Origin: Elusimicrobiota bacterium
GTDB lineage: Bacteria > CAYTYR01 > UBA6262
Direction: 5' to 3'
DNA length: 31,160 nt
Assembly: GCA_003153935.1 (NCBI GenBank)
Contig: PMCA01000008.1
Span: 19,068 to 50,227, forward strand
This document shows, in pieces, positions 1,756 through 21,361 of this stretch (position 1 is the stretch's first letter; each line of letters begins with the position of its first letter). The notes beneath the pieces were generated by a model. The model had not been told where the DNA came from. It saw only the letters and a program-made list of their open reading frames with translations, and did no database searches. The position numbers and the translations under genes are program-made.

Positions 1756-1846
1756 TAAAAGATCGGTAACCCCGAAGAAATATGTAATAAATAGTCAGTA
1801 GTTTGTATCAACCCCCATTTTATATTTTATAAAGAAAGAGAATTTA

Positions 1847-5600: not shown

Positions 5601-5680
5601 CGTTCAAGATAACTATCCCAGCCAGCAAAGAACCTACCGAGGTCGAAAACTGCGACATAAACCTTTTCATCAAGAAGTAG
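2646..5680 (+). CDS. Outer-membrane fimbrial usher (TcfC/CS1-like) with C-terminal SdrD-B-like domain; apparent frameshift at a T9 tract
   Basis: ATG 2646 overlaps the chaperone stop and starts a signal peptide (MKINRTLLAPVVFF) that hits TAA at 2700-2702. The -1 frame, open from 2660 to TAG 5680, continues the signal peptide (LSICLIPPVYA, then EAS) and all of the usher. One more T in the run 2680-2688 joins them into about 1,011 residues. The only canonical start within the long frame, TTG 2894, would remove the signal peptide and first mature strands. Domains: usher N-terminal part, a central beta-barrel region with many aromatic strands (about 3,300-5,040), an SdrD-B-like domain with Ca-loop DLNGNGHRDEGEPG (about 5,097-5,260), and a carboxypeptidase-regulatory-like fold (about 5,390-5,600). 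It would export and assemble the subunit at 1180. The gene may be phase-variable, use slippage, or carry a sequencing error. Confidence 0.8.
2680..2688 (+). repeat. T9 homopolymer inside the usher signal-peptide codons
   Basis: Nine consecutive T (2680-2688) sit exactly where the signal-peptide frame and usher frame must join. Ten or seven T would be in frame; nine is not. A C6 run follows at 2704-2709 and is a second possible slip site, since both frames stay open between the two runs until 2700. Confidence 0.85.
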
Positions 5681-6625: not shown

Positions 6626-7732
6626 ATGGTCAGGATGTCGGATATATTCAAGAAGATTGAAGAAAGCAAAAAAATTGAGAACCTGGGGCCGCAAAAACTC
6701 TCCCCGGACAAAGGAGTTATCCCCCCCGCCAGTGTTGTTAAGCCAGTCTTACCCGAAGAAACGAAAACCACCGCTTCTGAGATTAAAGCTGAGGCAGAAG
6801 CAGGGGACGTTTACGTTTGCCATAATCCTGCCAGTGAGAGCGATAACACTGCTGCCACCGAGTGTGAGAAATTGTATGTCGACGCCCGCACGCTTATGAA
6901 GGAATTGTTAAGGGAAGACGCGGTCTACGAACTGGTAGATACTCTGCGTATTCCCGCCCTTATAGAAAGATTTATCGATCTGGCGAAAGCCCATCCCCAG
7001 AAAATGACCGCGCTGGCTTTGGACGCGGATAGCTGTCACGAAATCGCGTATGTGTATTGCCATTCGGTAAATGTAACTATACTAACTATACTCTTGGGAC
7101 AGGAATTAGGCTATGATCACGAGCAGCTAAAGGACCTGGGCGTAGCCGCTCTGCTGCATGACATCGGGATGGTCCATTATCTTGACATCATCAGCCAGCC
7201 CAGGAAACTGACCAAAGAGGAATTCGAGAAGATAAGGAACCATACTATCTTTGGGACCAAGGTATTGTCCAGCCTCAGAGGGATAAAAGAAATAGTCTTC
7301 ACCGTGGCCAGGCAGCATCATGAGCATCTGGACGGCACAGGGTATCCTGAAGGGCTTAAAGCCGACGCCATACACGAATACAGCAAGATCCTATGTGTCG
7401 TTAATATCTATGAGGCCATGATGCACCGCCGTTCCTGGCGGACAGAATTCCAGGCGATGGAGACCATGCAGGAAATCTTAAAGCACAAGACTGCTTATGA
7501 CCCTAAGATCGTCAAGGTATTAATAAGCAAGATCGGCATTTTCCCTATCGGCAGCCTGGTTGAATTGAATACCAAGGAAATTGCCCGGGTCATAAAATTG
7601 AATTGTGACAATGTCCTGCGGCCGGTGGTGAAAATAATCCGCGAAAGCAATGGCGATGAAGCCAGGGAAACCAAGATAATAGATTTGTCCACAGAACACG
7701 CTATTTGGATCAAACACGTAGATCAGGAATAA
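6626..7732 (+). CDS. Divergent HD-GYP domain protein (possible c-di-GMP phosphodiesterase or sensor)
   Basis: The protein has 368 residues. Residues 1-60 are charged and low-complexity, about 90-300 form an HD-GYP domain, and a tail of about 65 residues follows. HD-GYP enzymes hydrolyse cyclic di-GMP with a two- or three-metal site (known). Seen: HDIG at 178-181 and HHEHLDGTGYP at 231-241 are intact. The usual Lys after HDIG is Met182, the Asp of the VaDvyDA motif is Asn260, and the following acidic residue is Glu263. Activity may be altered or lost. Start: ATG 6626, eight bases after GGAGGA; ATG 6635 is an alternative. It ends 7 nt before the B12 radical-SAM gene and probably shares its transcript. 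It could couple surface or peptide production to c-di-GMP. Confidence 0.85.
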   Translation: MVRMSDIFKKIEESKKIENLGPQKLSPDKGVIPPASVVKPVLPEETKTTASEIKAEAEAGDVYVCHNPASESDNTAATECEKLYVDARTLMKELLREDAVYELVDTLRIPALIERFIDLAKAHPQKMTALALDADSCHEIAYVYCHSVNVTILTILLGQELGYDHEQLKDLGVAALLHDIGMVHYLDIISQPRKLTKEEFEKIRNHTIFGTKVLSSLRGIKEIVFTVARQHHEHLDGTGYPEGLKADAIHEYSKILCVVNIYEAMMHRRSWRTEFQAMETMQEILKHKTAYDPKIVKVLISKIGIFPIGSLVELNTKEIARVIKLNCDNVLRPVVKIIRESNGDEARETKIIDLSTEHAIWIKHVDQE

Positions 7733-7739
7733 ATAAATA

Positions 7740-9416
7740 ATGAAGGTTTTATTGTGTCTGCCACCTGATTATGATCGAAATTATCCTCCCTTAGGCACCC
7801 CGGCCCTGGTCGGATTTCTTAATAGCAAAGGCGTTAACGCGATGCAAGTTGATCTTAACTTGGCCTATCGCGTTTTTTTATTGGACCACGTTAAGGGGAG
7901 GGGGCTAAGCGAGGCGGATAAAAAAGACCTGCTGCACCCCTTGATGAAGACGTTATTCAATAAAAAGCTTAAAAATCGCTATTATTCCAAATTCCTGCCG
8001 CGGCGATCCAGCCGTTCCTTTGCTGACCTGCCATATGATAATAACTCCAATAGTTCATTCCATTTTACCGAACAACTTTTATCATCAAAACATCTCTTTA
8101 GATATCTACAAGACGAGAGCGAAAATACTTTCTGTCAGTTTTACCTGGCACATCAGGTTATACCTTTGCTCAGGAAAGAAAACGTAAAAGTTTTAGGGAT
8201 ATCCGTGATCTCCCCCCAGCAGGCCATCCCTGCGTTGACCTTGGGGTTATTGGTAAAAAAAGAGTTACCAGGTGTTCATGTGAACATGGGCGGTCAATGG
8301 GTAACCCTGTTCAGAAAAGAACTCATCGAGCGTAAAGACCTATTTGCCTGTTTTGACAGCTTAATAGCCTTTGAAGGAGAGACGCCGCTGTATGAATTGG
8401 TTAAAGCTGTCAGTCGAAACGAAGAGCCAAAAGGCTCCAACATTATCACCGGGAAAACCCGCCATCCGGAATTTGCCCCGAGGGGCGAAGGTCTGAACAA
8501 TTTATCCTGCCCGGATTTCACCGGCTTAGACCTGGATGATTATGACGCGGGAGCCAGGGGCAGCGCCTTAACCTACGAGACTTCAAGAGGGTGCTATTGG
8601 AATAAATGCGCTTATTGCGTGGATTTGCCATTGCCGAAACCTTCTTATCGGGTCAAGAAGCCAGCTCTGGTGGTTAAGGAAATACGAGAACTGGTTAATA
8701 CATACGGAGCAAAAGAACTGCTGATGGGCGATCCTGGCATGTCGCCGCGACAAATGCTGGCTATTTCCCGAGCGCTCATCAAAGCTAACGTCAAGGTCCG
8801 GTGGTGGACTATGGCCCGGCTGGATCCCGGATTCAGTAAAATGCATTTTGATACTGCTAAACAGGCTGGCTTGACCAAAATTAACTTCGGGTTCGAATCA
8901 GCCTGCGATAAAGTGTGCGATTTGTTGCACAAAGGCAACCGCCGTGAAATTTCCAGGCGCATAATTAAAGATTGCGCCGCGGCCGGTATCATGGTGGATC
9001 TGCAAACTATCATCGGTATGCCGGGCGAAACCCCTGATGACGCGATGGATACGGTCAGTTTTTTAATAGAACATAAAAAAGATATCGCAGCTGTGACTTT
9101 TAACGTCTACTATCTTACACCCGGTAATTACGTTTATCTCCGCCCGGCCCATTACGGGATAGGCTATAATAAGAATAAAGTCCTGCCGTTCCAATTTATG
9201 CTGCCTTTTACAAACAAATGGGGCATGACCAAAGGACAGGCACAGGTTTTAATAAATCTCTATTACCAGCTTTTAGCTGGCAATAAAGTGAAAAAGACTG
9301 GTACGGGCGTAAAAGATAGAATAACACGGTCTGGACGGGCAACATTATCCCTGGCCGGGCAAAAAGTCGACCTTAGATGGACAAAATACGCATCAGGGAA
9401 CATGGCGGTTAGATGA
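7740..9416 (+). CDS. B12-binding-type radical SAM enzyme
   Basis: The protein has 558 residues. Residues 1 to about 180 look like a cobalamin-binding Rossmann domain (MKVLLCLPPDY, LGTPALVGFL, LGISVISPQQAI, NMGGQWVTLFR), without the base-off DxHxxG motif. The radical-SAM barrel begins about 265 with TYETSRGC. The cluster cysteines are C285, C290 and C293, a CX4CX2C spacing instead of CX3CX2C. INFGFES and IGMPGET are later barrel motifs. Such enzymes often methylate unreactive carbons or handle RiPP and lipid substrates (known). Start: ATG 7740; an AGGA lies about 12 nt upstream. The stop overlaps the next gene as ATGA. Position between HD-GYP and the peptidase suggests a role in the peptide pathway; it could instead serve a surface lipid or glycan. 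Confidence 0.8.
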   Translation: MKVLLCLPPDYDRNYPPLGTPALVGFLNSKGVNAMQVDLNLAYRVFLLDHVKGRGLSEADKKDLLHPLMKTLFNKKLKNRYYSKFLPRRSSRSFADLPYDNNSNSSFHFTEQLLSSKHLFRYLQDESENTFCQFYLAHQVIPLLRKENVKVLGISVISPQQAIPALTLGLLVKKELPGVHVNMGGQWVTLFRKELIERKDLFACFDSLIAFEGETPLYELVKAVSRNEEPKGSNIITGKTRHPEFAPRGEGLNNLSCPDFTGLDLDDYDAGARGSALTYETSRGCYWNKCAYCVDLPLPKPSYRVKKPALVVKEIRELVNTYGAKELLMGDPGMSPRQMLAISRALIKANVKVRWWTMARLDPGFSKMHFDTAKQAGLTKINFGFESACDKVCDLLHKGNRREISRRIIKDCAAAGIMVDLQTIIGMPGETPDDAMDTVSFLIEHKKDIAAVTFNVYYLTPGNYVYLRPAHYGIGYNKNKVLPFQFMLPFTNKWGMTKGQAQVLINLYYQLLAGNKVKKTGTGVKDRITRSGRATLSLAGQKVDLRWTKYASGNMAVR

Positions 9417-9820
9417 TTGATCAAGAGCAGGCTTTCTTTTCGGTAAAAGGGTTCTGTATGTGGCCGTTCTTAAATGACGGTCAAAAGATCCTGGTTAAAA
9501 AGATTGCGCCGCATGAGTTTCGTCGTGGTGATCTGATACTTTACCGCGGTGACGGGCATTTATTGTGCCACCGGTTGCTGCGCAAAGAGGAACAAGGAGG
9601 CAGCTGGGTATTTTATTGCCGCCCGGATTCATCGGTTTCTCAAGGCGAGCCGGTTAACGAAAATATAGTGGAAGGCAAAGTGGCGGCGGTAATCACCGCG
9701 GACAGGGTAATTAATCTGGGAACGCCTTCCCAGCGTTTCCGGGCGATCATAATCCTATTATTATTGTCTCCGGTCTTAGCCCGGCTTGACCGGCTATATA
9801 ATAAAATAAAGGGCAGGTAA
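9413..9820 (+). CDS. S26/S24-like signal peptidase with Cys in the nucleophile position
   Basis: The protein has 135 residues. The box normally reading GxSMxP reads GFCMWP, with Cys15 in place of Ser. The second box, LLCHRLLR, carries His53, as in ER/SipW-type signal peptidases that use Ser-His. A later Asp72 and the NIVEGKV segment match the family's end. A hydrophobic stretch near 111-124 is a probable C-terminal membrane anchor. The start ATG overlaps the previous stop (ATGA). The likely role is proteolysis of an exported or leader-bearing peptide, so it is a candidate leader peptidase for the precursor at 13210, since the exporter at 17272 has no peptidase domain. The Cys codon TGT is one base from Ser (TCT or AGT), so a sequencing error cannot be excluded. 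Whether a Cys-His form is active is unknown. Confidence 0.75.
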   Translation: MIDQEQAFFSVKGFCMWPFLNDGQKILVKKIAPHEFRRGDLILYRGDGHLLCHRLLRKEEQGGSWVFYCRPDSSVSQGEPVNENIVEGKVAAVITADRVINLGTPSQRFRAIIILLLLSPVLARLDRLYNKIKGR

Positions 9821-9826
9821 GTACTG

Positions 9827-11491
9827 TTGCAAAATAAATTAAATATTAAATATTTTCTTATAGCCATTTTATTATTCGCCGCTATAGTGCGATTTTGGGG
9901 AATAGGGTTCGGCTTGCCAAATACAAATTGCCGGCCTGATGAGGAACAAATTGTTGATATTGTAAAGTCTCCCGTGCACAATTTTCATCCCGGCGGTTTT
10001 AACTACCCGTCACTTTATAAATATATTAATCTTTGCTTTTATGGTTTATATTATATTCTTGGTTTATTTACCGGCAAATATAAATTGCTAGCGGATTTTA
10101 TTAATGAGATCGTCATTACCAATTATTCAGCCCTTTATCTAATAAACAGGTTTCTTTCGGCATCCTTTGGCGTCGCGACTGTATTTATTTGTTATAAGGT
10201 AGCCGAAAGATTATTCAATAGAAAAACCGCGATGATCTCCGCGTTTTATTTGAGCTTCGCCTACCTTCATGTCAGAGACTCTCATTTTGGCACCGTTGAC
10301 ATCCCGATGGTTTTTTTCATTACGTGCTCAATGTTTTATATTATAAAAGCTTACCAGGAGAACGCAACAAGAAACTATGTTTTAGCGGGGATATTTGCCG
10401 GGTTAGCGGCTTCTACCAAATACGCCGGTATTTTATTAATTGTGCCGATGTTTATTGTTAATAGTTTTAGCATATCTATAACCAGAGGAGAAGATAAGGC
10501 GTTTGTGTATCCGTTTTCTTCCACTAAAAGAATGTTGTTTTTTATAATCTTATTTGCGGCGGCTTTCTTGCTGGGGACGCCATACGCGCTATTGGACTGT
10601 AAACAATTCTTAAACGAATGCATAGAGACAATAAGCCGTTTCATCCATGGGGAAGGTATTATTCTTGGCAGGGGATGGTGGTATCATTTTAGGTATTCCT
10701 TACCGCTGGGTATGGGTTTTAGTTTATTTTTCGCGTCATTAGCAGGGATCTTTACTCTGGCAAAAATGGATTTAAAAAAAGCTCTTATTTTGTGTTCTTT
10801 CCCATTGGCATATTATGTCATCATCGGGCAGGGATATGGCGTATTCCTAAGGTATGTTATCCCACTCGTTCCCTATCTTTGTATTACGGCCGCCGTATTC
10901 ACCGTGTATCTGGTTAATTTCCTGGGAAAATATTTAAGGCCGGACTTTAATAAAGCAGTAATGTTAATATTCCCTTTATTAATTATACTGCCTTCTGTTT
11001 GCAATATTTTACGCTTTGATACTTTGCTGGCAAAAAAAGATAACCGCTTAATAGCGACGGAATGGATCAATAAGAATCTTCCTGAAGGAAGTTCTATCGC
11101 ACTTTGTGACACTGTTTACGGGATCCAGGTCCCCTTAACAGCCGCGGCATTGCGGGATAAAGATGACTTCGGCATGGAGGATAGGATCAGGATAAATTAT
11201 TTAAGAAATAATAATATTAAAGGTTTCAATGCGCATGGTTGGGATGGCCGATCCAACATGTCGAAATATATCGTTTTAGAAGAGGCACCGGTGAGGGTGT
11301 CTGGCTCGCTTGATCCGGAGCAAAAAGAGATCATACGAAATTATTATTATCCATTGGCAAAATTCGAATCGTATAATATAGACAATATATCTAACTGGTA
11401 TGATCAGGAAGATAATTTCTATATACCGTTCGCGGGTTTTGAGGAAATCCAAAGGCCGGGCCCCAATATCTATATCTATGAAAAGAAATAA
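9827..11491 (+). CDS. Membrane glycosyltransferase, GT39/ArnT-like
   Basis: The protein has 554 residues and about ten to twelve hydrophobic helices. After the first helix comes the Asp-Glu motif (RPDEEQ, D38-E39) typical of GT39/GT83 enzymes that move a sugar from a polyprenyl-phosphate donor onto protein or lipid. A soluble C-terminal part of about 150 residues follows the last helix. Start: TTG 9827, seven nt after the previous stop and about 9 nt after GGCAGG; no in-frame ATG fits better. By eye the gene is clearly AT-richer than its neighbours, which hints at separate ancestry. In this run it may glycosylate the peptide product or a surface protein outside the membrane. The acceptor is unknown. 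Confidence 0.75.
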   Translation: MQNKLNIKYFLIAILLFAAIVRFWGIGFGLPNTNCRPDEEQIVDIVKSPVHNFHPGGFNYPSLYKYINLCFYGLYYILGLFTGKYKLLADFINEIVITNYSALYLINRFLSASFGVATVFICYKVAERLFNRKTAMISAFYLSFAYLHVRDSHFGTVDIPMVFFITCSMFYIIKAYQENATRNYVLAGIFAGLAASTKYAGILLIVPMFIVNSFSISITRGEDKAFVYPFSSTKRMLFFIILFAAAFLLGTPYALLDCKQFLNECIETISRFIHGEGIILGRGWWYHFRYSLPLGMGFSLFFASLAGIFTLAKMDLKKALILCSFPLAYYVIIGQGYGVFLRYVIPLVPYLCITAAVFTVYLVNFLGKYLRPDFNKAVMLIFPLLIILPSVCNILRFDTLLAKKDNRLIATEWINKNLPEGSSIALCDTVYGIQVPLTAAALRDKDDFGMEDRIRINYLRNNNIKGFNAHGWDGRSNMSKYIVLEEAPVRVSGSLDPEQKEIIRNYYYPLAKFESYNIDNISNWYDQEDNFYIPFAGFEEIQRPGPNIYIYEKK

Positions 11492-11495
11492 TCCT

Positions 11496-12923
11496 ATGAA
11501 GATATTTCTAAAAGAAGACCATGACCAGGTGCTAAAGGTCTGGCGCAGAGCCGGCAGCAGGGGACTGGACCTTGTCCATGTTGACGCCCATCTTGATTTT
11601 GTCTTGCACCCGGCGCGCCAGCCTGAGGAAATACTGGCCCAGGCTACTACTATTAAACAATTTAAAGAAAACCTGGAATACACCCTCTGTTTTTTGCGGT
11701 ACGAAAAGAAACTGGATAAGCAGACAGATATTGGCAATTATATTTATCCGGCTATGCGCGATGGTATGGTTAAGAACTTCTGGTGGGTTGTCCCCGGGAG
11801 CAACAAGGATCTTGACCAAAACTTCAAAGGAGTAAAAAAATTATTTGAGGGCGCGTTTGGCAGCCAGGCGATAAAGTTGGTAAAGAAGGGCCAGGGCCTT
11901 ATCCTGGGCCGTGCTCTTAACCGGGAGTTTTGGATTTGCACGCTGGATACCTTGCCAGTTTTTAAGCAAAAGGTATTACTGGATATTGATGTTGATTTTT
12001 TGGTAGTCCCCGACCTGACAAAGGCTGATAATAGGTGTGACATAGGTTGGCGTGCGGTATGGATAGAACCCCGTCGGTTAAAGGAACGGTTACTGGAAAG
12101 GATCATGGCTCCGCAGGTCATAACCATAGTTTATTCGACTAACGGCGGTTATACGCCTATGGTTTTCCGCTATTTAGGTGATGAGATAGCTCATTGTTTT
12201 AGCCCCGAGAGATATAAGGAACAATATAAACGGGCGGTTGCCGCCAGGGATAATTTTGCCAGGTTTAAAGAAACCGGCAAAAGATCATATTATCAAAAGG
12301 CCATTAAATTAGATAAGAGTTACCAAAATGAAGACAATAACTACGGACCTCTTTATTTGTATAAAGGGAATCTTGCCGCGGCTAAAAAAGAGCTAAATAA
12401 TATTTTGCGAGTTGATCCTAAAAACGCTTACTGCCTTAAGAATATGGGGGTAATTCATTTACGCCACCGGGAGTATTTAAAGGCCTTAACGCATTTTAGG
12501 AGGGCTTTAGCGCTCTTAAAGGCCAGGGAAAGATTACCGGTAATATTAAACTTAGCCGAAGTTAATTTTCGGCTAAAGCGGTATGATACAGCGGGGAAAC
12601 TATTTTTACAGTACGCCAAAGGCGAACCATTGAGCCATTTAGCGGCCTACTATCTGGGAGCTATCTGCTACGCCAAAAAGGATTTCGTCAACGCCGGGAA
12701 ATATTATCACCGGGCCTTACAACTGGGGTGCAGGAACGTCGCTGTACTAAGAAAGCTGCTAGGGGTTTCTTTTAAGCTTGACAGCAAGGAAAAAGAGGAT
12801 ATAATTGACTATATCAACGGCAGATTGTCTGCCTGGGTAAAAGAAGAGAAAAAAGGCAGTAAAATATTGCCGGTATTGAATAAAATAAAAGCGCAAATGG
12901 AAAGGAGTCATTATGGGGGATAA
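11496..12923 (+). CDS. UPF0489 (peptide-arginase-like) protein with C-terminal TPR repeats
   Basis: The protein has 475 residues. The N-terminal domain (1 to about 265) matches UPF0489: EDHD at 7-10, HVDAHLDF with D30, H32 and D34, and LLDIDVDF with D163, D165 and D167. These match the arginase metal motifs DAHxD and DxDxxD. As I recall, OspR-type peptide arginases, which turn Arg into ornithine in RiPP precursors, belong to this family. Residues about 280-430 hold four or five TPR-like repeats (YCLKNMGVIHLRHREYLKAL, AAYYLGAICYAKKDFVNAG), perhaps for peptide binding. Start: ATG 11496, four nt after the previous stop; ATG 11478 in frame would overlap by 14 nt. The 3' end overlaps pqqD-like 12913. 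The precursor core has five arginines, so arginine modification is a direct prediction. Confidence 0.75.
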   Translation: MKIFLKEDHDQVLKVWRRAGSRGLDLVHVDAHLDFVLHPARQPEEILAQATTIKQFKENLEYTLCFLRYEKKLDKQTDIGNYIYPAMRDGMVKNFWWVVPGSNKDLDQNFKGVKKLFEGAFGSQAIKLVKKGQGLILGRALNREFWICTLDTLPVFKQKVLLDIDVDFLVVPDLTKADNRCDIGWRAVWIEPRRLKERLLERIMAPQVITIVYSTNGGYTPMVFRYLGDEIAHCFSPERYKEQYKRAVAARDNFARFKETGKRSYYQKAIKLDKSYQNEDNNYGPLYLYKGNLAAAKKELNNILRVDPKNAYCLKNMGVIHLRHREYLKALTHFRRALALLKARERLPVILNLAEVNFRLKRYDTAGKLFLQYAKGEPLSHLAAYYLGAICYAKKDFVNAGKYYHRALQLGCRNVAVLRKLLGVSFKLDSKEKEDIIDYINGRLSAWVKEEKKGSKILPVLNKIKAQMERSHYGG

Positions 12924-13194
12924 AGACATTTTGAAAAAAAATAAGAATATCGTCAGCCGTGTTATAGGGGCGGAGACCATATTGTTGCCGATTTATAAAA
13001 ACACCAAGGAGATGAATTGCATTTATACGCTGAATAAGCCGGCCGCCCGGGTCTGGGAGTTGATCGACGGCAAGCGCGATTTAAACCGGATAAAAAAAGA
13101 TATCCTGAGCGAGTTTGACGTAAGCGCCGGCGAACTGGATAAGCTGCTGGCCGCGTTGTTAAAGGACCTGAAAGGAATAAAAGCGGTTAATTAA
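12913..13194 (+). CDS. PqqD-like RiPP recognition element
   Basis: The protein has 93 residues. The PqqD pattern is clear: an N-terminal strand pair, then ARVWELIDGKRDLNRIKKDI and a helical end (SAGELDKLLAALLKDL) forming the winged-helix core. PqqD-like proteins bind leader peptides and present them to radical-SAM enzymes (known). Start: ATG 12913 with AGGAG about 8 nt upstream; it overlaps the previous stop by 11 nt. It is immediately followed by the precursor gene and three SPASM-type radical-SAM genes, the textbook order for a RiPP locus. It should bind the conserved-looking leader of the 13210 peptide. Confidence 0.88.
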   Translation: MGDKDILKKNKNIVSRVIGAETILLPIYKNTKEMNCIYTLNKPAARVWELIDGKRDLNRIKKDILSEFDVSAGELDKLLAALLKDLKGIKAVN

Positions 13195-13209
13195 ACCGCA
13201 GGAGGAATT

Positions 13210-13410
13210 ATGAGTAAACCAAAGTTCAACCCGATCGTTACCCGCATCAAGCTTAACCCCGAGCAGGCAGTATTGGCTTGCAGTTGTTATACAGGATTGG
13301 TAAACAATGTGGCCAACAACAGATCTTCAGCCGGGACTGTTTGTGCGAGAAATTTGAGTAGTTTTTTGTGTAGAAACACAAGAAATGTTACCAGGAACTC
13401 ATCAACATAA
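13210..13410 (+). CDS. Putative RiPP precursor peptide, Cys-, Asn- and Arg-rich core
   Basis: The peptide has 66 residues. The start is ATG 13210 behind a very strong AGGAGG (13200-13205). Residues about 3-22 form a leader with the motif TRIKLNPEQAVL (11-22), which resembles leaders found beside PqqD/radical-SAM genes. The core (23-66) is small and polar: Cys at 24, 26, 45 and 54, eight Asn, many Ser/Thr and five Arg. Arg-Asn pairs recur at 47-48, 55-56, 58-59 and 62-63. There is no signal peptide. Four N-x-S/T sequons occur at N37, N48, N59 and N63. All core Arg codons are AGA or AGG, while the leader Arg is CGC, so the core may have diverged separately. The likely fate is leader binding by the PqqD-like protein, then radical-SAM, arginase, kinase or sugar modification, leader removal and export. 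The product structure is unknown. Confidence 0.8.
   Translation: MSKPKFNPIVTRIKLNPEQAVLACSCYTGLVNNVANNRSSAGTVCARNLSSFLCRNTRNVTRNSST
13362..13385 (+). other. Stem-loop at the 3' end of the precursor gene
   Basis: TTTTTTGTGT (13362-13371) pairs with ACACAAGAAA (13376-13385) around the tetraloop AGAA (13372-13375), with one G-U pair. No T-tract follows, so it is not a standard terminator. It lies in codons of the core, 32 nt before the next gene. It could stabilise the upstream mRNA or slow read-through into the enzymes. Confidence 0.45.
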
Positions 13411-13416
13411 GGTAAA

Positions 13417-14502
13417 ATGCTATCTCACGGACTGGCTTATCTTGAACATAAAATTGAACGCCTTTTTCATGCCCCGGCATACGGGCAGATAGAATTAACC
13501 TATCGTTGTGATTACAATTGTCCGTACTGTTTCAATAAAGGCAGCGAGAATATCGGCAGGGAATTAACGACTGCCGAAATCAAGAATATCCTCGATGAAA
13601 TCCAGCGGGCCGGCTGTTTGCGGCTTGCTTTGACCGGCGGCGATCCTCTACTACGGCCGGATTTTAAAGAGATTTACGCCTACGCTAAACGCAAAGGATT
13701 TATTATCACTGTTTTGACTAATGGTTATCGCCTCAGTCATAAGTTGAGCGATTATCTGGCGAAATACCCGCCGCTTTCCATAGATATTACCGTAAACAGC
13801 CTGAGCCCGTGTAATTACGCCAAGGTAACCGGGTTTTCCGGCGCAGCGCTTAAACGCGTGCTCGATAATATTCAATATGCGTCGCGTAAAGGCCTGGCGT
13901 TGATCATCAAAGCCAACTGCCTTAAAGAGAACAAGACTCAGATCGCCAAAATTAAACGCTGGGCTCATAATTTGCCGGGAAAATCCAAGGAAAACCTCTA
14001 TAATTTTCGCTATGATTCTATTATTTACCCTCGCCTGAATGGTGATACCTCGCCTTGCCGTCTGCGGCTCAACCAAAAAGAGCTTAACGCGGTGCATAAG
14101 CTTGATCCCGATATAAAAAAAGAACACCAAAATTATTTGGCTAAAGACTTTCCTTCCGGTAAGATCCCGCGTCGTGCTTTATATTATTGTAATACTTATA
14201 GGGATCACTTTTATATAAATCCTTTTGGCCGGTTAAAGTTTTGCAGCAATACCGATAAATTCAGCGTGGATCTGCGTAAAGTTTCCTTTACACAGGGTTT
14301 TTATAAAGAGTTTCCCAAGCTTACCATGGAGCGGTTTAAGACCGACTCGATTTGCCGGACATGCCGCATTAGGGAGATATGTTTTTCCTGCCCGGCGGCG
14401 GCATTTTTAGAAACCGGCGACGAGGAAAAACCGGTTAAATATTTTTGCCGCTTAGCGCATAATACGGTTAAAGCGGCGCAAAGTAAAAGGCGTAAACGAT
14501 GA
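13417..14502 (+). CDS. SPASM-domain radical SAM peptide-modifying enzyme 1
   Basis: The protein has 361 residues. The radical-SAM cluster is C31, C35, C38 (CDYNCPYC) after IELTYR. LALTGGDPLLRPDF and VLTNGYRL are the usual barrel motifs for S-adenosylmethionine contact. The C-terminal SPASM part (about 250-345) has single cysteines at YYCNTY and LKFCSN, then CRTCRIREICFSC and a last Cys in KYFC, enough for two auxiliary 4Fe-4S clusters. Relatives form thioether or carbon crosslinks in peptides (known). It lies directly behind the precursor (6 nt) and the PqqD-like protein, so the 13210 core is the expected substrate. Its barrel is similar in sequence to the 16245 protein; the two appear to be paralogues. 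The stop overlaps the next start (ATGA). Confidence 0.85.
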   Translation: MLSHGLAYLEHKIERLFHAPAYGQIELTYRCDYNCPYCFNKGSENIGRELTTAEIKNILDEIQRAGCLRLALTGGDPLLRPDFKEIYAYAKRKGFIITVLTNGYRLSHKLSDYLAKYPPLSIDITVNSLSPCNYAKVTGFSGAALKRVLDNIQYASRKGLALIIKANCLKENKTQIAKIKRWAHNLPGKSKENLYNFRYDSIIYPRLNGDTSPCRLRLNQKELNAVHKLDPDIKKEHQNYLAKDFPSGKIPRRALYYCNTYRDHFYINPFGRLKFCSNTDKFSVDLRKVSFTQGFYKEFPKLTMERFKTDSICRTCRIREICFSCPAAAFLETGDEEKPVKYFCRLAHNTVKAAQSKRRKR

Positions 14503-15362
14503 AATCCGCCGCTTACCATAAATTATGGGCGAAAATCCATCAACAGGCCAGAGAAGAGCATTTGCCGCTGCGGGTAATGTTCGAATTGACCTATCGCTGC
14601 AATTTTAACTGCCGGCACTGTTACGTGCCTAAAAGCTGGCGGCGCAGGAAAGAGTTAAATACCGCCGGCGTTTATGATATTATACGGCAGCTTAAAGATG
14701 CCGGGTGTTTTTACCTGGGGTTTACGGGCGGGGAAATATTTTTACGCCGGGATATATGGCGGATCCTGGGATTCTGTAAGCGACAGGGGATGCAAATTAT
14801 TCTCTATACCAATGGTTCCTTGATCGATGGGCAAGCTGCCAAACGCATAGCCGATATCGGAGTGAATAAGGTAGATATCACCTTGCCGGGAATAAGCGAA
14901 AAAGTTTTTGACGGCGTTACCGGCCTTAAGGGTTCGCGCCAAGCGGTATTTTCGGCGATCGACTCTTTGCGTAAACATAAAGTCGGCCTGGGATTTAAAA
15001 CTTGCCAGCTTAAAGCTAACCAGGGTGAAATCAGGGCCATTGAACATTTTTGCGCTTCCATAAATTGCGGGCATCGTCTTGATGATTCAACTTCACCCCG
15101 GATCGACCAATTAATGATCGACCGGGCCAAGCCGACCAAAGCATTTATATGCGGCGGCGGGATTACGCAATGCGCCATAACCCCGGCCGGGCGGGTGAAG
15201 CTGTGCCCGTTGGTCGAATGGCCTAAAATTAAAATATCCCGTGATAATAGTTTCAATCAAATATGGAAAAGATTGCCTCAAATGATCAAAGATGGGGAGT
15301 GTTATAAGTTTTGCCCAGCCGGCTTGGGCCGCTTAACGGAGGAGCGCTGCGTTATTCAATGA
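14499..15362 (+). CDS. Twitch-type radical SAM peptide-modifying enzyme 2
   Basis: The protein has 287 residues, 60-70 shorter than the two neighbours. The radical-SAM cluster is C34, C38, C41 (CNFNCRHC) after ELTYR, with GFTGGEIFLRRD and ILYTNG following. The C-terminal part has ICGGGITQCAI, RVKLCPL and ECYKFCPAG but lacks the CX2CX5CX2C block of full SPASM domains. It probably holds one auxiliary cluster (twitch) and so may do different chemistry from its two paralogues. Starts and stops overlap on both sides (ATGA), implying strict coupling. It belongs to the peptide-modification set by position and by the shared ELTYRC entry. Confidence 0.82.
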   Translation: MKSAAYHKLWAKIHQQAREEHLPLRVMFELTYRCNFNCRHCYVPKSWRRRKELNTAGVYDIIRQLKDAGCFYLGFTGGEIFLRRDIWRILGFCKRQGMQIILYTNGSLIDGQAAKRIADIGVNKVDITLPGISEKVFDGVTGLKGSRQAVFSAIDSLRKHKVGLGFKTCQLKANQGEIRAIEHFCASINCGHRLDDSTSPRIDQLMIDRAKPTKAFICGGGITQCAITPAGRVKLCPLVEWPKIKISRDNSFNQIWKRLPQMIKDGECYKFCPAGLGRLTEERCVIQ

Positions 15363-16267
15363 AGTTTAAGATCGCCGATATTGTTTTTGAGCTTATCAGC
15401 CATTATCCGCGGATATTTAAGGAAGATCGGGATTATTTAAACCGCTACGGCGCTTTTATCTATAAAGGCAAACAGAATGCCAAGATAAAAATATCGGTTG
15501 AGGTAGTGGAGACATTACCCGGTGTCCGCGGTAAAGAGATTTTTGCGGTTTATGAGCCGGTTTCCGGCTACGAACGGTGGCGACTTTGGGAAAATAAGGA
15601 TGAATATGTCTATCATTGCCCGATTCCTGAGCGCGCCGCGATGGCTTTTATCAGTAAAGACTTTTCCCGCGCCCGGGCCTATGTCCCCCCCTACGAAGGA
15701 AAATTTGCCTGGGACGCCGTAGATATTATTTATGATATGATGCAGATCATGTTGATCAATTATTTCGCTTATCGCCAAAACGGATTATTTTTGCATGCCG
15801 CAGCGATCAAGGAAAATGGCTATGCGTTAGTTTTTGCCGGCCGGTCCGAGAGCGGGAAGAGCACAACCGCGCGGTTATGGCACCGGCACAGCCGGGCGGT
15901 AGTTTTAAACGATGACCGGGTTATTGTGCGGAAAACCGCTAAGGGTTTTTTTGCGTATAGCGGGCCCTGGTCGGGGGAGTTTGGCCATGAGGCAACGGCG
16001 GTTTCCGCTCAGGCATCATTACGCGGGTTGTTCGTCATTGAACATGCTAAGAAGAATTTCTGCCGCCCGCTGGCGGTAGAAGGGGCGTTTCGCGCTCTTT
16101 ATCCTACACTGTTCCCGGTTTTTTGGGATGGCCGGTTAATGAACAATACGGTGAACTTATGCGAAGAGTTGATGAGCAGGGTGGCCGTTTCCCGTTTAGG
16201 ATTCGTTAAGAATAAAAAGGTGATACCTTTCGTGAGGCGAATCGTTGCTGAACCAAATAAGCTATAA
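15359..16267 (+). CDS. HPr-kinase-like protein (probable RiPP peptide kinase)
   Basis: The protein has 302 residues. A mixed alpha/beta N-terminal part (1 to about 145) leads to an HprK-type P-loop domain: HAAAI, AGRSESGKSTT (K167), VLNDDRVIV (D185-D186) and SGPWSGEFG. HprK homologues in lasso-peptide and PqqD clusters phosphorylate serines of the peptide tail (known for some), and the precursor here ends in Asn-Ser-Ser-Thr. It is not the true HPr kinase: the surrounding genes have no sugar phosphotransferase context. ATG 15359 overlaps the previous stop as ATGA; an upstream in-frame start at 15311 would overlap by 52 nt and is less likely. The 3' end overlaps the next gene by 23 nt. Confidence 0.82.
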   Translation: MKFKIADIVFELISHYPRIFKEDRDYLNRYGAFIYKGKQNAKIKISVEVVETLPGVRGKEIFAVYEPVSGYERWRLWENKDEYVYHCPIPERAAMAFISKDFSRARAYVPPYEGKFAWDAVDIIYDMMQIMLINYFAYRQNGLFLHAAAIKENGYALVFAGRSESGKSTTARLWHRHSRAVVLNDDRVIVRKTAKGFFAYSGPWSGEFGHEATAVSAQASLRGLFVIEHAKKNFCRPLAVEGAFRALYPTLFPVFWDGRLMNNTVNLCEELMSRVAVSRLGFVKNKKVIPFVRRIVAEPNKL

Positions 16268-17285
16268 AAAATTTAGTTTAAACACGCATCTGGATAATTT
16301 GAGATCTGGCCGTCCCAATTCCTGCCAGTTGGAACTTACTTACGGCTGTGGTTTGCGTTGCGTGCATTGTTACGTTGCCAGCTATAACCGGCCGGAATCT
16401 ATTGCCCGCGAGTTGAGCACGGCTAAGGTAAAAAAAATCATTGATGAGTTAAGGAATGCCGGGGTTTTGTGGGTCTGTTTTACCGGCGGTGATCCTTTAA
16501 CGCGTAAAGATTTTTGCGAACTTTATACCTATGCTCGTGAAAAGGGTTTTTTAATCACTATTTTTACCAACGGGTATTCGCTTCGTCAAGAGCATATCGA
16601 ATTGTTTAGACGCCAACCGCCATTTATCATTGAGATAACCCTCAATGCTGTAGATAAAGGGCTTTATGAGAAAATATCCGGCGTTAAGGGTTCGTTTAAA
16701 AAAGTGATGGCGTCGATCGGCGCGTTACGCCGCCATAAAATTCCGCTTAAGATTAAGGCTATGGTAACCAAGCTTAACTCTCAGCATATCGGTAAGATTA
16801 AGAAATATGCGCTCGTGAATGATCTGCCTCTTGCTCTGGATGATTTTTTGCACGCCGGGCTGGGACTCAGCCCCCGGCCCTTGGAATTTCGCCTGCCGCC
16901 GGAATATTTTTCTCTCCGTACTAAGCGTAAGGGTAATAGCTGCCCCGTTATACCGAAAGAAAGGAAGGCGGTTAGAAACGCTCTTTTCCCTTGCGTCGCT
17001 GCAGGCGGCGATGGGTTCCAGATCGGCCCTTACGGACATATCTCTGCTTGTTGTCTTATCCGGAGACCGGATTTGAATGTATTGAAGAACGGCGTTGGCC
17101 CAGCTGTGAAGAAGATGGTTGAATATTTCCGCAACCTTGATTTTACCACCGATTCAAAATGTAAAACTTGCGCCAGACGCGATGAATGCGGGTGGTGCCC
17201 GGGTAAGGCCTGGGTAGAAACCGGGAGCCTGGAAAAACCGCTAGATTATTGCTGTGCCATAGCTAAAGCCAATGATAATCAATAA
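16245..17285 (+). CDS. SPASM-domain radical SAM peptide-modifying enzyme 3
   Basis: The protein has 346 residues. The cluster is C35, C39, C42 (CGLRCVHC) after LELTYG, with CFTGGDPLTRKDF and IFTNGYSL following. The SPASM region has FPCVAAGGDGFQIGPYGHISACC, then CKTCARRDECGWCPG and a final DYCC, so two auxiliary clusters are expected. It resembles enzyme 1 (13417) throughout the barrel and SPASM part, suggesting tandem duplication. The start is TTG 16245, inside the kinase gene; no ATG in frame lies near, so the exact start is uncertain. It overlaps the exporter gene by 14 nt. Confidence 0.85.
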   Translation: MLNQISYKKFSLNTHLDNLRSGRPNSCQLELTYGCGLRCVHCYVASYNRPESIARELSTAKVKKIIDELRNAGVLWVCFTGGDPLTRKDFCELYTYAREKGFLITIFTNGYSLRQEHIELFRRQPPFIIEITLNAVDKGLYEKISGVKGSFKKVMASIGALRRHKIPLKIKAMVTKLNSQHIGKIKKYALVNDLPLALDDFLHAGLGLSPRPLEFRLPPEYFSLRTKRKGNSCPVIPKERKAVRNALFPCVAAGGDGFQIGPYGHISACCLIRRPDLNVLKNGVGPAVKKMVEYFRNLDFTTDSKCKTCARRDECGWCPGKAWVETGSLEKPLDYCCAIAKANDNQ

Positions 17286-18915
17286 AAAATCCCTGCTGTT
17301 ACCGCTTAAAATTGTCTTCAAGAAGCAATACCTAAGTAATTGGGTAATCACCTCTCTGCTGGCTATTATCGCGTTGGGCGCCGGCTTAGTGGTCCCTTAT
17401 TTGGTCAAGCTTACGGTGGACGAAGGTATCGCCAAGAAAGATTTTACGCATTTTTTGCTGTGGTGCGTAAGCGCCGGCGGGGTGATCATCACGAAACAGA
17501 TTATCGAGGCGATTGTTTCATTGCGCCGTTCGGCGTTGACGGCTAAGATCCGTTTTGATCTGAACCGCCGGATCTTTAAAAATATGCACAATATGCCGCA
17601 AAGCTGGTTTGCCCAGAAGGGAGCGGGAGAAGCGGTCTACGCTTTCGATAACGACGGCACCGCGCTTATTAATATTGTCGGCACGATCACGAACGGCTTT
17701 TTCATCGAGGCGATAAGCGTCATCGCCTCGCTGGCCATAATCTTTGCGCTTAATATAAAGATCGGGTTAACCGTGATTTTGTTCCTGCCGGTGATTTTCC
17801 TCGTTAGCATCCGCCGGTTCAAAAAGCTGGAGGAACTTTGGCGGGGGATGGCGGGCAGCGGCGAGGCGGTATTGAACTATTTGGAAGAAAGTTTTTGGCG
17901 CGCTTACCTGATAAAAATATTTAACGCCGCCCGACAGGCCACGCGCCGTTATGCGCGTTTATTGGTAAAAGATACGCGTTTAACGATAAAGCGAGAGCGC
18001 CAGGAAGCCTGGTCGTCGGCAGCGCCGGCGATCTTGCCATTGGCGGCTACCGGGGTGATTTATGTATTATCCGGGTATCAGGCGATCACGGGGAAAATGA
18101 GCCTGGGGACGCTGGTGGCGATCGGGGGTTACATTTACCAATTTATTTCGGCTGCCGGGCAGTTATTGTTCCAGTGGCAGGAATTACAGCCAGGCTTGAT
18201 CTCCGCTGAACGGCTGGCTCCGCTATTAGCGGCAACTGAACTTGGAGCCGCGGTTGATAAGATGAATACGCTAATTTCCCCCGGTGCAATAAAAATACGC
18301 GGATTATGTTTTTCTTACGCCGCCGGCCAGGATATTTTTCATGATTCCGATCTTGATATCGCGGGGGCGGATTATACGGCGATTACCGGGCCTTCCGGCT
18401 GCGGCAAGACCACTTTGCTTAATTTGATCATGCGGCTTTATCCGGCGGGAAAAGGAGAGATCGCGATTGACGGTAAGAATATAAATTCACTGCCGCGTTC
18501 GCTGTGGGGCAAAGAAGTGATCATGTGCCCGCAGGAACCATTATTATGGAATTTATCGATCGCCCAAAACATCGCTTATCCGGGTCAATCTGCTAAAGAG
18601 GCAGATGTTGAGGAAGTTGCGCGTTTAACCGGCGCGGACGAATTTATCAAAGGTTTACCGCAAGGGTATGAGACGGTTTTGGGAGAGAACGCCTGCCGGT
18701 TATCCCAGGGGCAAAAGCAGCGTATTTCTTTGGCGCGCGCGTTGATCAAGAGGCCAAAAGTATTATTGCTCGACGAAGCTTTCAGCGGGCTACCCGAAGA
18801 AGCGGAAGCGCATATCATCGAAAGCATACGCAGTAAATTCCCAGCCATGACGATAGTCGCCGCGACTCACCGGCTGGCTTCGCTGCAAAAAGCCCAGACG
18901 GTAATAAGGTTATAA
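17272..18915 (+). CDS. ABC exporter, fused membrane and ATPase domains, no peptidase domain
   Basis: The protein has 547 residues. Residues about 20-300 form a six-helix exporter membrane domain. About 340-547 is the ATPase: Walker A GPSGCGKTT (K379), Q-loop CPQEP, signature LSQGQ, Walker B VLLLDEAFSG and switch His in ATHRL. The signature has Gln for the first Gly of LSGGQ, a common variant. It has no N-terminal C39 peptidase, unlike bacteriocin exporters that cut double-Gly leaders, so leader removal needs another enzyme. Start: ATG 17272, overlapping enzyme 3. It would work as a homodimer in the inner membrane. Substrate by context: the modified peptide, or a lipid-linked form of it. Confidence 0.85.
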   Translation: MIINKKSLLLPLKIVFKKQYLSNWVITSLLAIIALGAGLVVPYLVKLTVDEGIAKKDFTHFLLWCVSAGGVIITKQIIEAIVSLRRSALTAKIRFDLNRRIFKNMHNMPQSWFAQKGAGEAVYAFDNDGTALINIVGTITNGFFIEAISVIASLAIIFALNIKIGLTVILFLPVIFLVSIRRFKKLEELWRGMAGSGEAVLNYLEESFWRAYLIKIFNAARQATRRYARLLVKDTRLTIKRERQEAWSSAAPAILPLAATGVIYVLSGYQAITGKMSLGTLVAIGGYIYQFISAAGQLLFQWQELQPGLISAERLAPLLAATELGAAVDKMNTLISPGAIKIRGLCFSYAAGQDIFHDSDLDIAGADYTAITGPSGCGKTTLLNLIMRLYPAGKGEIAIDGKNINSLPRSLWGKEVIMCPQEPLLWNLSIAQNIAYPGQSAKEADVEEVARLTGADEFIKGLPQGYETVLGENACRLSQGQKQRISLARALIKRPKVLLLDEAFSGLPEEAEAHIIESIRSKFPAMTIVAATHRLASLQKAQTVIRL

Positions 18916-18917
18916 AA

Positions 18918-19775
18918 ATGCTGGAAAAAAATGACGATGGAAATTACGCTTATTTAGCGGCGCACTTACAAACGCTTGAATCCGTCAAGGATATCCTTTA
19001 CGCCTTGAACGGGCAGGGTATCGACGCGATAATACTGAAAGGTATTTCCCTGGCCACCGCGGTATACCAGGATCTGAACCGGCAGCCCGGCTCTGATATT
19101 GACCTATTGGCCAGGCGCGGCGATATCCTTAATGTGAAGGCTGTTTTAAATACCTTGGGCTGGAAGGAAAAATCCGACGTTTTAGCGAAACTGGTCAGCT
19201 ATAATAAGCCATTAGCGCTAAATAGTTTAATGTTTTTTAATCCCGACAGTCCTGTAACTATCCATTTACATTGGCATATTATCAATACCACCTGGCCGCT
19301 TAACCGTTATGTCAGGAATATCGATATGACGGAGATCTGGCAAGCGGCGACAACCAGTTCGCTCGATGGGGCGCCGGTTAAAGAGCTAAAGCCGGAGCAC
19401 CTCGTTATTTATTTGTGCTATCATGGATTTAACCACCATTTCGCGAAGCCGGTATATGTTGACGATATCAAGGCTGCATTAGCACGCTTTAAAGATAACC
19501 TTAGCTGGAAAATTTTATATGAACAGGCCCAAAAGTGGGGCCTGCACTGGCTGGTTGTGTATAGTATAAAATATGTTGAAAAACCCGAAATAGGCCTATA
19601 CTCTAAGGCTTATTGGCGGTTTTTTTCCCATGAAAAAGGCCTAATCGGGAAGATGCTTTTTTTGTATCGTACATTTTTTCCGCAAAAAATTATTATGGCC
19701 GCCACGAATAACTCGCCACTGGCCCAGATTGGCTTTAAACTTTACCTGAGCCGTCTGGAAAACATGAGGAGATAA
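18918..19775 (+). CDS. Nucleotidyltransferase-fold protein (NTP_transf_5-like)
   Basis: The protein has 285 residues. The N-terminal pattern is that of PF14907-type proteins: LKGISLATAVYQD, then SDIDLLARRGD with metal-binding D60 and D62, and later LHWHI and YLCYHGFNHHF. Such proteins are found with HprK-like kinases and PqqD proteins in lasso-peptide and related clusters (known association; reactions mostly untested). Start: ATG 18918, two nt after the exporter stop. It may adenylylate or otherwise nucleotidylate the peptide, or act as a toxin-antitoxin-like regulator. By position it belongs to the RiPP set. Confidence 0.75.
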   Translation: MLEKNDDGNYAYLAAHLQTLESVKDILYALNGQGIDAIILKGISLATAVYQDLNRQPGSDIDLLARRGDILNVKAVLNTLGWKEKSDVLAKLVSYNKPLALNSLMFFNPDSPVTIHLHWHIINTTWPLNRYVRNIDMTEIWQAATTSSLDGAPVKELKPEHLVIYLCYHGFNHHFAKPVYVDDIKAALARFKDNLSWKILYEQAQKWGLHWLVVYSIKYVEKPEIGLYSKAYWRFFSHEKGLIGKMLFLYRTFFPQKIIMAATNNSPLAQIGFKLYLSRLENMRR

Positions 19776-19777
19776 AT

Positions 19778-21361
19778 ATGCGTTTTTTCGCGTTTAAGAC
19801 CGATATTAACCCGGGAACCGCCGGCCATACCCCAAAAAGATCATTTTCAGTGGATGCCGGCACTTCGGTAAGCCAGCATAAACGACACTTTTTTGAGACG
19901 CTTAAATCCATCGGGACATTGATCCAGCTGGACGAAGGGATAAGCCGTAAAGACGCTGAGGCGCTGTTTGTCCAGCCTGATGTGATATTCGCCCAGATGC
20001 ATAATGTGGCGCGTTTACCGGACTGGGACCGTATACCGAAACGCCGGCTTTGCCATTCCCTGGGAGATTTTTTACTCCCTGAGGTTTTTTCCGAACCGGC
20101 GAGTTTTGATTTTAATAATGTAAACCTGGTTACCAGTGATTTTCAGGAAAATCGCCTTAAAGAACATTTAGGCCTGGCCGCCCCGGCTACGGCGGTGTTT
20201 ACTCCCCAACTTAATGAAATGAGCTTTTATCCGCCTAATGCCAAAGAAAAAGCTTTGGCACGTAATAAATTTGGCCTGGCAAAAAATGATATCCATATTG
20301 TTTATGCCGGGCGTTGGCTGGCTACCAAGGGGATTTGCCAGTTATTGCGCGTTTTAAACCTGTGGCCGGATAAAAACGTAAAGGTATCTTTGGCGGGTAA
20401 TTTCAGTCCAGATTTTCCCCTGCGGATGTCAGCAACAGCGCATTTTACTTTTGCCGATTATTATAGGCGGGAATTTCTGTCGCGGGCTCAGGAAAAACAG
20501 GTGCGCCTGTTGGCAGCCTATCCGCCGGGACGGCTTCGTGAATTATTCTGGTCAGCCGACCTGTTTGTTTACGCCTCTGGCCATGAAGACGAGAATTTCG
20601 GTATGGCGCCCCGGGAAGCCGCGCTGTGCGCCGTGCCGGTAGTGGTTACTGATTTTTGCGGTTTGCACCAAATAGGAGCGCAAATGCCCTGGGGTTGCCT
20701 TAATACTTACCCGGCTTTCAGCGGTATACGCTATAGCCTCCGGGAATTCAACAGCCTATTGTGGAAAGCCGCCAGAAAAAAAGATTGGGACCCGCAAAAA
20801 TGCATCGCGGCCGTGAAAAAAGAGTGCAGTACGGACATCGCCAGAGATAATATGCGCCAGGCCGCGGAAGCTTTATTGCGGCGGCCGCTTAAAATACCAC
20901 TGGAGCCAAAAGCCGCCAGGGAAAAGATCATGTTTGATATGATAAGATACGCCGACGAAAATATTGCCCGTACCTATATCGAAAAGAAAGAGACGCCTGT
21001 TGATGGCGCTTATGTTGATGGTGCCGGCTTTGATAAGGAAGGATTCCCTTATCGGAAATTCCTGCAGGCCGTGCAAGGTTTTTATACTACGCTTGACCGG
21101 CCTCCTGTCGTCCAAGCCGGCAATAGATTGAGAGGGTTTTTCCGGGTTGCGGCCTGGCAGGAGGAGCAGGCGATCGTAGAGGTGGGATTCCCCGGCCCCA
21201 GGGTAAAACGCTACAAGGACAAAGATTGGCGGGCATTGGCAGCTTGCGCGCAGAAAAACAGAACCGGCGACTTGGTCTGGCGCCCGCGGACATTAAACCA
21301 GTTGCGTTTGACGCAGGAGTTGGTAGACCTGGGATATCTCGTTCCGGAGGAAGTTATCTGA
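19778..21361 (+). CDS. GT4-type glycosyltransferase with C-terminal extension
   Basis: The protein has 527 residues. Residues about 60-370 form a GT-B fold: VYAGRWLATKGI, LFWSADLFVYASGHEDENFGMA and REAALCAVPVVVTDF, with the E-x7-E nucleotide-sugar site. A C-terminal extension (about 385-527) has no family I recognise; its end (RTLNQLRLTQELVDLGYL) looks helical. The protein is cytosolic, with no signal peptide. Start: ATG 19778, two nt after 18918's stop. Last gene of the plus-strand run; its 3' end overlaps a convergent gene by 8 nt. It could glycosylate the peptide before export or build a sugar donor for the GT39 enzymes. The N-terminal 60 residues are atypical for GT4. Confidence 0.75.
   Translation: MRFFAFKTDINPGTAGHTPKRSFSVDAGTSVSQHKRHFFETLKSIGTLIQLDEGISRKDAEALFVQPDVIFAQMHNVARLPDWDRIPKRRLCHSLGDFLLPEVFSEPASFDFNNVNLVTSDFQENRLKEHLGLAAPATAVFTPQLNEMSFYPPNAKEKALARNKFGLAKNDIHIVYAGRWLATKGICQLLRVLNLWPDKNVKVSLAGNFSPDFPLRMSATAHFTFADYYRREFLSRAQEKQVRLLAAYPPGRLRELFWSADLFVYASGHEDENFGMAPREAALCAVPVVVTDFCGLHQIGAQMPWGCLNTYPAFSGIRYSLREFNSLLWKAARKKDWDPQKCIAAVKKECSTDIARDNMRQAAEALLRRPLKIPLEPKAAREKIMFDMIRYADENIARTYIEKKETPVDGAYVDGAGFDKEGFPYRKFLQAVQGFYTTLDRPPVVQAGNRLRGFFRVAAWQEEQAIVEVGFPGPRVKRYKDKDWRALAACAQKNRTGDLVWRPRTLNQLRLTQELVDLGYLVPEEVI

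Follow-up and report, generated by a model that had tools for sequence, protein, structure and literature searches.

A peptide-modification gene cassette in an Elusimicrobiota bacterium and its relatives in Omnitrophota

A run of fourteen genes and its counterparts in other genomes

The window analysed here is a stretch of 31,160 nucleotides from an Elusimicrobiota bacterium (assembly GCA_003153935.1, PMCA01000008.1, positions 19,068 to 50,227; contig 27 in a draft genome of 1.75 Mb), which belongs to a phylum with only five genomes in the collection searched. Between positions 6626 and 21361 it carries fourteen open reading frames, all on the plus strand, which the original prediction had read as one multi-enzyme locus for a ribosomally synthesised and post-translationally modified peptide (RiPP). 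The coordinates confirm the tight packing it described: the largest intergenic gap is 15 nt (13194/13210) and ATGA overlaps occur at 9416/9413, 14502/14499 and 15362/15359. The gene families that it proposed were likewise recovered in profile hidden Markov model (HMM) searches against Pfam and NCBIfam, from which all families were assigned. Three starts were re-set from homolog alignments, to 11496 (ATG) for the UPF0489 gene, 15359 for the HprK-like gene and 16248 for the third radical S-adenosylmethionine (rSAM) gene.

At the centre of the run lies the gene for a 66-aa precursor peptide (13210..13410), a member of our A2 profile family; its ATG follows an AGGAGG, the strong ribosome site noticed from the start. 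It is preceded by a PqqD-family RiPP recognition element (RRE; 12913..13194; PF05402 5.8e-10) and followed by rSAM1 (13417..14502; PF04055 4.6e-26), rSAM2 (14499..15362; 2.6e-20) and rSAM3 (16248..17285; 4.4e-24). These had been described as three tandem SPASM/twitch genes: three PqqE-like rSAM genes are indeed present, but a PadeK/LppK-like kinase of the HprK/PEPCK fold (15359..16267; ScmC 4e-9, HprK_rel_B 3e-6) sits between the second and the third. The SPASM label also holds in part. All three proteins have the CX3CX2C motif, and rSAM1 and rSAM3 carry the SPASM cysteine pattern (GX4C ... CX2CX5CX2C ... C), but rSAM2, with a shortened SPASM/twitch C-terminus, lacks the CX2CX5CX2C part, and the Pfam SPASM model (PF13186) scores on none of the three.

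Upstream of the PqqD gene are an HD-GYP domain protein (6626..7732; HD_5 2.1e-27), a B12-type rSAM enzyme (7740..9416), an archaeal-type signal-peptidase-I-like protein (SpI; 9413..9820; TIGR02228 1.3e-10) that is LppS-like and a candidate leader peptidase, a multi-spanning GT39/PMT_2-like glycosyltransferase (9827..11491; PMT_2 9.8e-17) and a UPF0489 protein with TPR repeats (11496..12923; PF12640 1.8e-8, NF052474 7.4e-7), which is a candidate peptide arginase converting Arg to ornithine. Downstream of rSAM3 come an MsbA-like ABC exporter without a peptidase domain (17272..18915; ABC_membrane and ABC_tran; MsbA_rel 2.1e-76), a nucleotidyltransferase-family protein resembling PsmN and LppN (18918..19775; NTP_transf_5, PF14907 1.9e-35) and a GT4 glycosyltransferase (19778..21361; PF00534 7e-14). 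A small convergent rSAM gene (21354..22238, minus strand) adjoins the run, and Poly_export, Wzz and O-antigen-ligase genes, assigned by HMM, lie downstream of it.

The same gene set recurs in another phylum, in nearly the same order, which argues against an assembly by chance. In Omnitrophota, the contig L117 keeps thirteen of its genes in the order B12-rSAM, SpI-GT39 fusion, UPF0489, PqqD, peptide, rSAM1, rSAM2, HprK, rSAM3, ABC exporter, GT4, convergent rSAM and NTP_transf_5. Its enzymes are 50-87% identical to those of the window (B12-rSAM 63%, GT39 73%, PqqD 87%, rSAM1 72%, rSAM2 70%, HprK 69%, rSAM3 58%, ABC 68%, NTP_transf_5 68%, GT4 50%), and its precursor joins a different core to a leader with 93% identity across 28 residues. 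SpI and GT39, separate genes in the window, form one fused protein there (L117:5654-7714). The small convergent rSAM gene (75% identical) is on the opposite strand there too and again adjoins GT4, so that it probably belongs to the cassette. HD-GYP is missing from the L117 cassette: the gene is probably an exopolysaccharide-locus neighbour, and the cassette proper spans 7740-21361.

In 48 loci where HprK or PqqD lies close to a precursor, we counted neighbouring rSAM genes in 47, HprK in 43, PqqD in 42, SpI in 33, NTP_transf_5 in 32, the ABC exporter in 21, UPF0489 in 15 and B12-rSAM in 13, almost always on the strand of the precursor; GT4 and GT39 occur in only 3 and 2. The fourteen-gene unit first proposed thus survives as a thirteen-gene set in L117, but it loses HD-GYP and contains two glycosyltransferases that few loci share. 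The kinase is present in 46 of 49 Omnitrophota genomes with a precursor, against 56 of 335 without. Neither a run broken up among unrelated neighbours nor retention of the rSAM genes without the peptide emerged as a pattern, the search having started from the peptide so that peptide-less rSAM loci were sampled only indirectly.

A same-family relative (G003, deposited as 'Elusimicrobia bacterium UBA6262') has a smaller cassette at the same site of the chromosome, flanked by an HD-GYP gene 57% identical to that of the window and by Poly_export/Wzz genes. It consists of PqqD, one rSAM, a 52-aa peptide (MDKKEYQTPQIKEVKLSPEEAVLTACK...SGS), an HprK-like kinase and a protein in which SpI and NTP_transf_5 are fused. 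Since the window's kinase is 69% identical to that of L117 but only 29% to that of this close relative, transfer between phyla is suggested.

Other observations concern the kinase and the flanks of the cassette. In L102 (G061) and L116 (G218) a decayed second HprK copy with internal stops adjoins a second precursor, suggesting duplication followed by loss inside the cassette. In G300, G394, G349, G106, G069 and other Omnitrophota genomes where no precursor was detected, an HprK-like domain lies in an open frame of 650-717 aa, perhaps a fusion with another enzyme. In the window, a second GT39-like protein (22238-23827, minus strand) is convergent with the cassette and no counterpart of it was found in L117. 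Positions 1180-5680, which look like a fimbrial assembly locus, encode a 928-aa usher-like protein whose C-terminus bears SdrD_B/CarboxypepD_reg-type domains, together with a small secreted protein and one that resembles a pilus chaperone.

Precursors with conserved ends and hypervariable cores

The window precursor begins with the leader MSKPKFNPIVTRIKLNPEQAVL and has a Cys-containing core of the CxCY... type that ends in NSST, its last residue being Thr. No NCBIfam model matched either of the two peptides tested, and a single-sequence search of 40 relatives and viral contigs gave no match. It took an alignment of the window and G003 peptides, scanned over 84,980 genomes, to arrive at Omnitrophota, and a 13-sequence profile then matched in 49 of 384 Omnitrophota genomes and in 14 of 386 genomes sampled domain-wide. 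Leaders are conserved across the family ([YWF]..P.[IV]..KLNPEQAVL..C) and cores are hypervariable, many of them Ser-rich, with the exception of the very end: the last residue of 100 complete precursors is Ser in 88 and Thr in 8, compared with a penultimate Ser in only 51 and a Ser share of about 10% in core interiors.

Some genomes carry remarkably many precursors. In G041, an Omnitrophota genome of 1.4 Mb, about 55 profile matches share one leader and have hypervariable cores, and 26 of the 29 precursors inspected have a terminal Ser (loci L142-L147 and L189); the one HprK locus detected in this genome (L189) also holds PqqD and three rSAM genes. G295 is likewise rich in precursors (107 first-look candidates, 16 scored). 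Near-identical short precursors with IPxCFxxGS-like tails are scattered singly in other sampled genomes, namely G431 (8 copies; L182-L184), G577 and G709 (L178-L180); some of them carry in-frame stops, and no RRE, rSAM or kinase gene was detected beside them within the fetched stretches.

Two further leads did not hold. An apparent enrichment of N-glycosylation sequons in the cores of two GT39-bearing loci was not upheld by shuffling (P 0.12 and 0.28). A 1685-aa neighbour of the L039 precursor, taken by eye for a LanM, is a glucan-synthase-like GH94/glucoamylase protein according to Pfam.

Candidate enzymes, proposed pathway and alternatives

The UPF0489 protein of the window matches PF12640, the family of the peptide arginases OspR, FlmR, OhkR and BipC, with 35.4 bits against a gathering score of 27. 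The arginase metal motifs (EEH, DXHXD and LDIDLDYF) are kept, as E[DN]H, D[AS]HxD and LDIDxD[FY], in 15 of 15 homologs (EDH, DAHLD and LDIDVDF in the window), all of which also match the NCBIfam peptide arginase model NF052474, below its cut-off. Moreover, the core ratio R/(R+K) is 0.80 in loci with UPF0489 versus 0.36 in loci without it (p 3e-5), and the association holds in a permutation stratified by core type over 43 genome means (p 5e-5); these p-values are optimistic because the sampled peptides are not phylogenetically independent. Between loci with and without UPF0489 there was no significant difference in leaders (p 0.94), in the kinase (p 0.095) or in GC content (p 0.69). Among the matches listed for a UPF0489-TPR profile against PDB sequences there were only TPR proteins. 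Together, the motifs and the Arg correlation make it likely that this enzyme acts as an arginase on the core, and the link predicts which cores would carry ornithine.

The number of rSAM genes tracks the type of core: across the 48 loci, CxC cores mostly come with three and single-Cys cores mostly with one. The best NCBIfam match of the B12-type rSAM protein is TIGR03975, a RiPP C-methyltransferase model (1.8e-26, below cut-off), which makes it a candidate peptide C-methyltransferase or cross-linker; biphenomycin is cross-linked by a B12-type rSAM enzyme, in a pathway that includes an arginase as well.

Alignments of 18 and 45 homologs of the HprK-like kinase show an invariant His, P-loop Lys and first Asp, and the second Asp is sometimes Glu. 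The best AlphaFold model for the window protein (mean predicted local distance difference test score, pLDDT, 81; predicted template modelling score, pTM, 0.81), the four others being poor, resembles structures of PEPCK and HprK/P, which together make up this kinase fold, with a best Z of 15.4 and 4.0 Å over 244 residues. The lasso peptide kinases PadeK, ThcoK and SyanK, which have a His-Lys-Asp-Asp motif, phosphorylate a conserved C-terminal Ser, and hexose addition is ascribed to the nucleotidyltransferase PsmN (PMC9266682). The near-fixed C-terminal Ser/Thr of our precursors matches the specificity of these kinases, which supports phosphorylation at the C-terminus. By this analogy the terminal residue is probably phosphorylated; that the phosphate is then glycosylated is a more tentative proposal, plausible but short of probable.

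For leader removal, linear polyphosphorylated peptides (LPPs) offer a guide: their SpI cleaves the leader in an RRE-dependent manner, and an HprK-like kinase features as the phosphorylating enzyme (P. alginolyticus lpp cluster, 2026; PMC13381572). In our family a small residue (A/T/S/G/C) occupies the Ala position of PEQA in 120 of 123 peptides, and the 12 residues from the leader Pro to this Ala equal the Pro-to-cleavage distance in LPP; from this equal spacing and the retained small residue, a cut just after PEQA is predicted. A signal-peptidase-type -3/-1 cut after VL[AST] was dropped as the residue varies (W, D, Q, F).

We therefore hold it almost certain that the run is a RiPP cassette, and consider it probable, as a whole, that it makes and exports an rSAM-modified, ornithine-containing peptide that is phosphorylated at its C-terminus and perhaps then glycosylated. 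Gene content, conservation, the precursor family, its conserved leader and C-terminus, the catalytic motifs and the arginase-Arg correlation are observed; each chemical step below, and their order, is taken from characterised homologs. The stand-alone PqqD would bind the N-terminal leader ([YWF]..P.[IV]..KL.PEQAVL) and present the precursor to the tailoring enzymes. The three rSAM/SPASM enzymes may cross-link or otherwise alter the Cys-containing core (CxCY...), and UPF0489 would hydrolyse core Arg to ornithine. The kinase would place a phosphate on the conserved C-terminal Ser/Thr, to which NTP_transf_5, assisted in this subtype by GT4 and GT39, could add a sugar. The signal-peptidase-like protein would remove the leader, and the MsbA-like pump would export the product, delivering it into the exopolysaccharide made by the adjoining genes or next to it. 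That all enzymes act on the 66-aa peptide is our inference; the Arg content and its arginase link, the fixed C-terminal Ser/Thr, the rSAM number relative to core type and the L117 SpI-GT39 fusion each support it. The original idea of a single RiPP locus is thus supported.

Several points weigh against this pathway. The product and the enzyme activities are predictions from the genes. The SpI match to TIGR02228 reaches 41 bits, below the curated cut-off of 52, and in the window protein a Cys replaces the catalytic Ser (GFCMWP), its His and Asp being retained, as an alignment of 44 homologs shows. The replacement is common to the window, L117, L137 and L190, the triad being intact in nearly all other relatives; the window SpI could be inactive or altered, or a Cys-type variant. 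HprK matches also fall below curated cut-offs. LppK targets core Ser3 rather than the C-terminus (PMC13381572), so that the site cannot be read from homology by itself, and LppN was without detectable activity in a heterologous system (PMC13381572). Finally, the reaction of the rSAM enzymes (thioether, C-C link or epimerisation) is not predictable from sequence here.

The kinase site is where an alternative has most room. The cassette could be a genuine RiPP cassette in which the kinase targets another core Ser, with the terminal Ser having a role in export, in recognition or in linkage to a polysaccharide; the internal target of LppK, the many Ser-rich cores and the neighbouring polysaccharide export genes all fit such an arrangement. 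We think it unlikely, as it is the last residue only that is near-fixed while other Ser positions vary, and as its main substitute is Thr, the other small hydroxyl residue. Also in doubt, and likewise unlikely, is a bolder version of the pathway: that the cassette defines a new RiPP class, an rSAM-cross-linked, ornithine-bearing peptide whose C-terminal Ser/Thr is joined by a phosphodiester to a sugar or polysaccharide, in effect a peptide-exopolysaccharide conjugate made by the kinase, NTP_transf_5, GT4 and GT39, with tens of cores per genome in some Omnitrophota.

Two alternatives would remove the modified peptide as the product. PqqD and PqqE-like rSAM genes, with PqqE and the mycofactocin maturase among the best general matches, recall the pyrroloquinoline quinone (PQQ) and mycofactocin pathways, in which case the peptide would do no more than carry a small redox cofactor that the rSAM enzymes produce. 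Hypervariable cores, up to 55 per genome, are unlike the carrier of one cofactor, and the peptide is accompanied by a conserved kinase, NTP transferase and exporter, which leaves this explanation very improbable. Least probable of all is that the locus is an exopolysaccharide or surface-glycan island, as GT4, GT39, NTP_transf_5 and the downstream Poly_export/Wzz/O-antigen-ligase genes might suggest, with the peptide and rSAM genes as unrelated passengers: it is contradicted by the nearly always co-oriented peptide-PqqD-rSAM-HprK block, found in dozens of genomes both with and without GT39/GT4, and L117 keeps the full block.

Comparison with known peptide systems

In the literature covered, which left subscription papers and preprints mostly outside its scope, searches on the leader motif, on Omnitrophota RiPPs and on PqqD with HPr kinase and rSAM did not turn up any account of such a combination. 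Among the most similar systems are the LPPs, whose clusters combine an RRE, an archaeal-type SpI, an HprK-like kinase, an NTP transferase and an MsbA-like pump in capsule loci (PMC13381572). All five core parts are present in the window cassette, inside capsule or exopolysaccharide loci in both cases. However, the LPP leader reads YxxPxVLxHQxIxFETxxS, of which only YxxPx[VI] and the spacing agree here, and LPPs are reported from Bacillota, phosphorylated at Ser3, with a core set devoid of radical SAM or arginase. Window-type loci instead have 1-5 rSAM genes, often an arginase and a B12-type rSAM enzyme, and a near-fixed C-terminal Ser/Thr. Given the different leader motif and the added rSAM and arginase genes, we do not file the cassette as an LPP.

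The paeninodin and pseudomycoidin systems (PadeK, PsmK, PsmN; PMC9266682) share the His-Lys-Asp motif of the HprK-like kinase, the conserved C-terminal Ser, an implicated phosphate-glycosylating nucleotidyltransferase, the PqqD-type RRE and an ABC exporter; in contrast to these lasso peptide clusters, neither a B2 transglutaminase-like peptidase nor an asparagine-synthetase-like cyclase is among the Pfam matches of the window, which has radical SAM enzymes instead. SynChlorMet also brings together HprK-like, PqqD-like and two rSAM/SPASM proteins (named ScmC, ScmD, ScmE and ScmF in NCBIfam), but in this comparison, made with the models only, the window proteins score far under the cut-offs (ScmC 36 bits against 125, ScmD 15.6 against 100, ScmE at most 80 against 400, ScmF at most 63 against 400). 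The known peptide arginases agree with UPF0489 in domain, three metal motifs and Arg-bearing cores, and BipC also in the company of a B12-type rSAM enzyme; they differ in that the predicted arginase here is TPR-fused and combined with an RRE, a kinase and an NTP transferase. As with the prochlorosins, tens of same-leader precursors in G041 go with a single detected enzyme set, but leader and enzymes are others and no LanM was seen; genomes of 1.4-1.8 Mb with tens of precursors per enzyme set would amount to a natural combinatorial library.

The cassette would thus carry the LPP/paeninodin logic (RRE, SpI-like protease, HprK kinase and NTP transferase) beyond Bacillota, into Omnitrophota and neighbouring phyla, and join it to radical-SAM and peptide-arginase chemistry; and since the leader is searchable and the C-terminal Ser/Thr near-fixed, the question of the kinase site, on which the LPPs and the phosphorylated lasso peptides differ, is directly testable.

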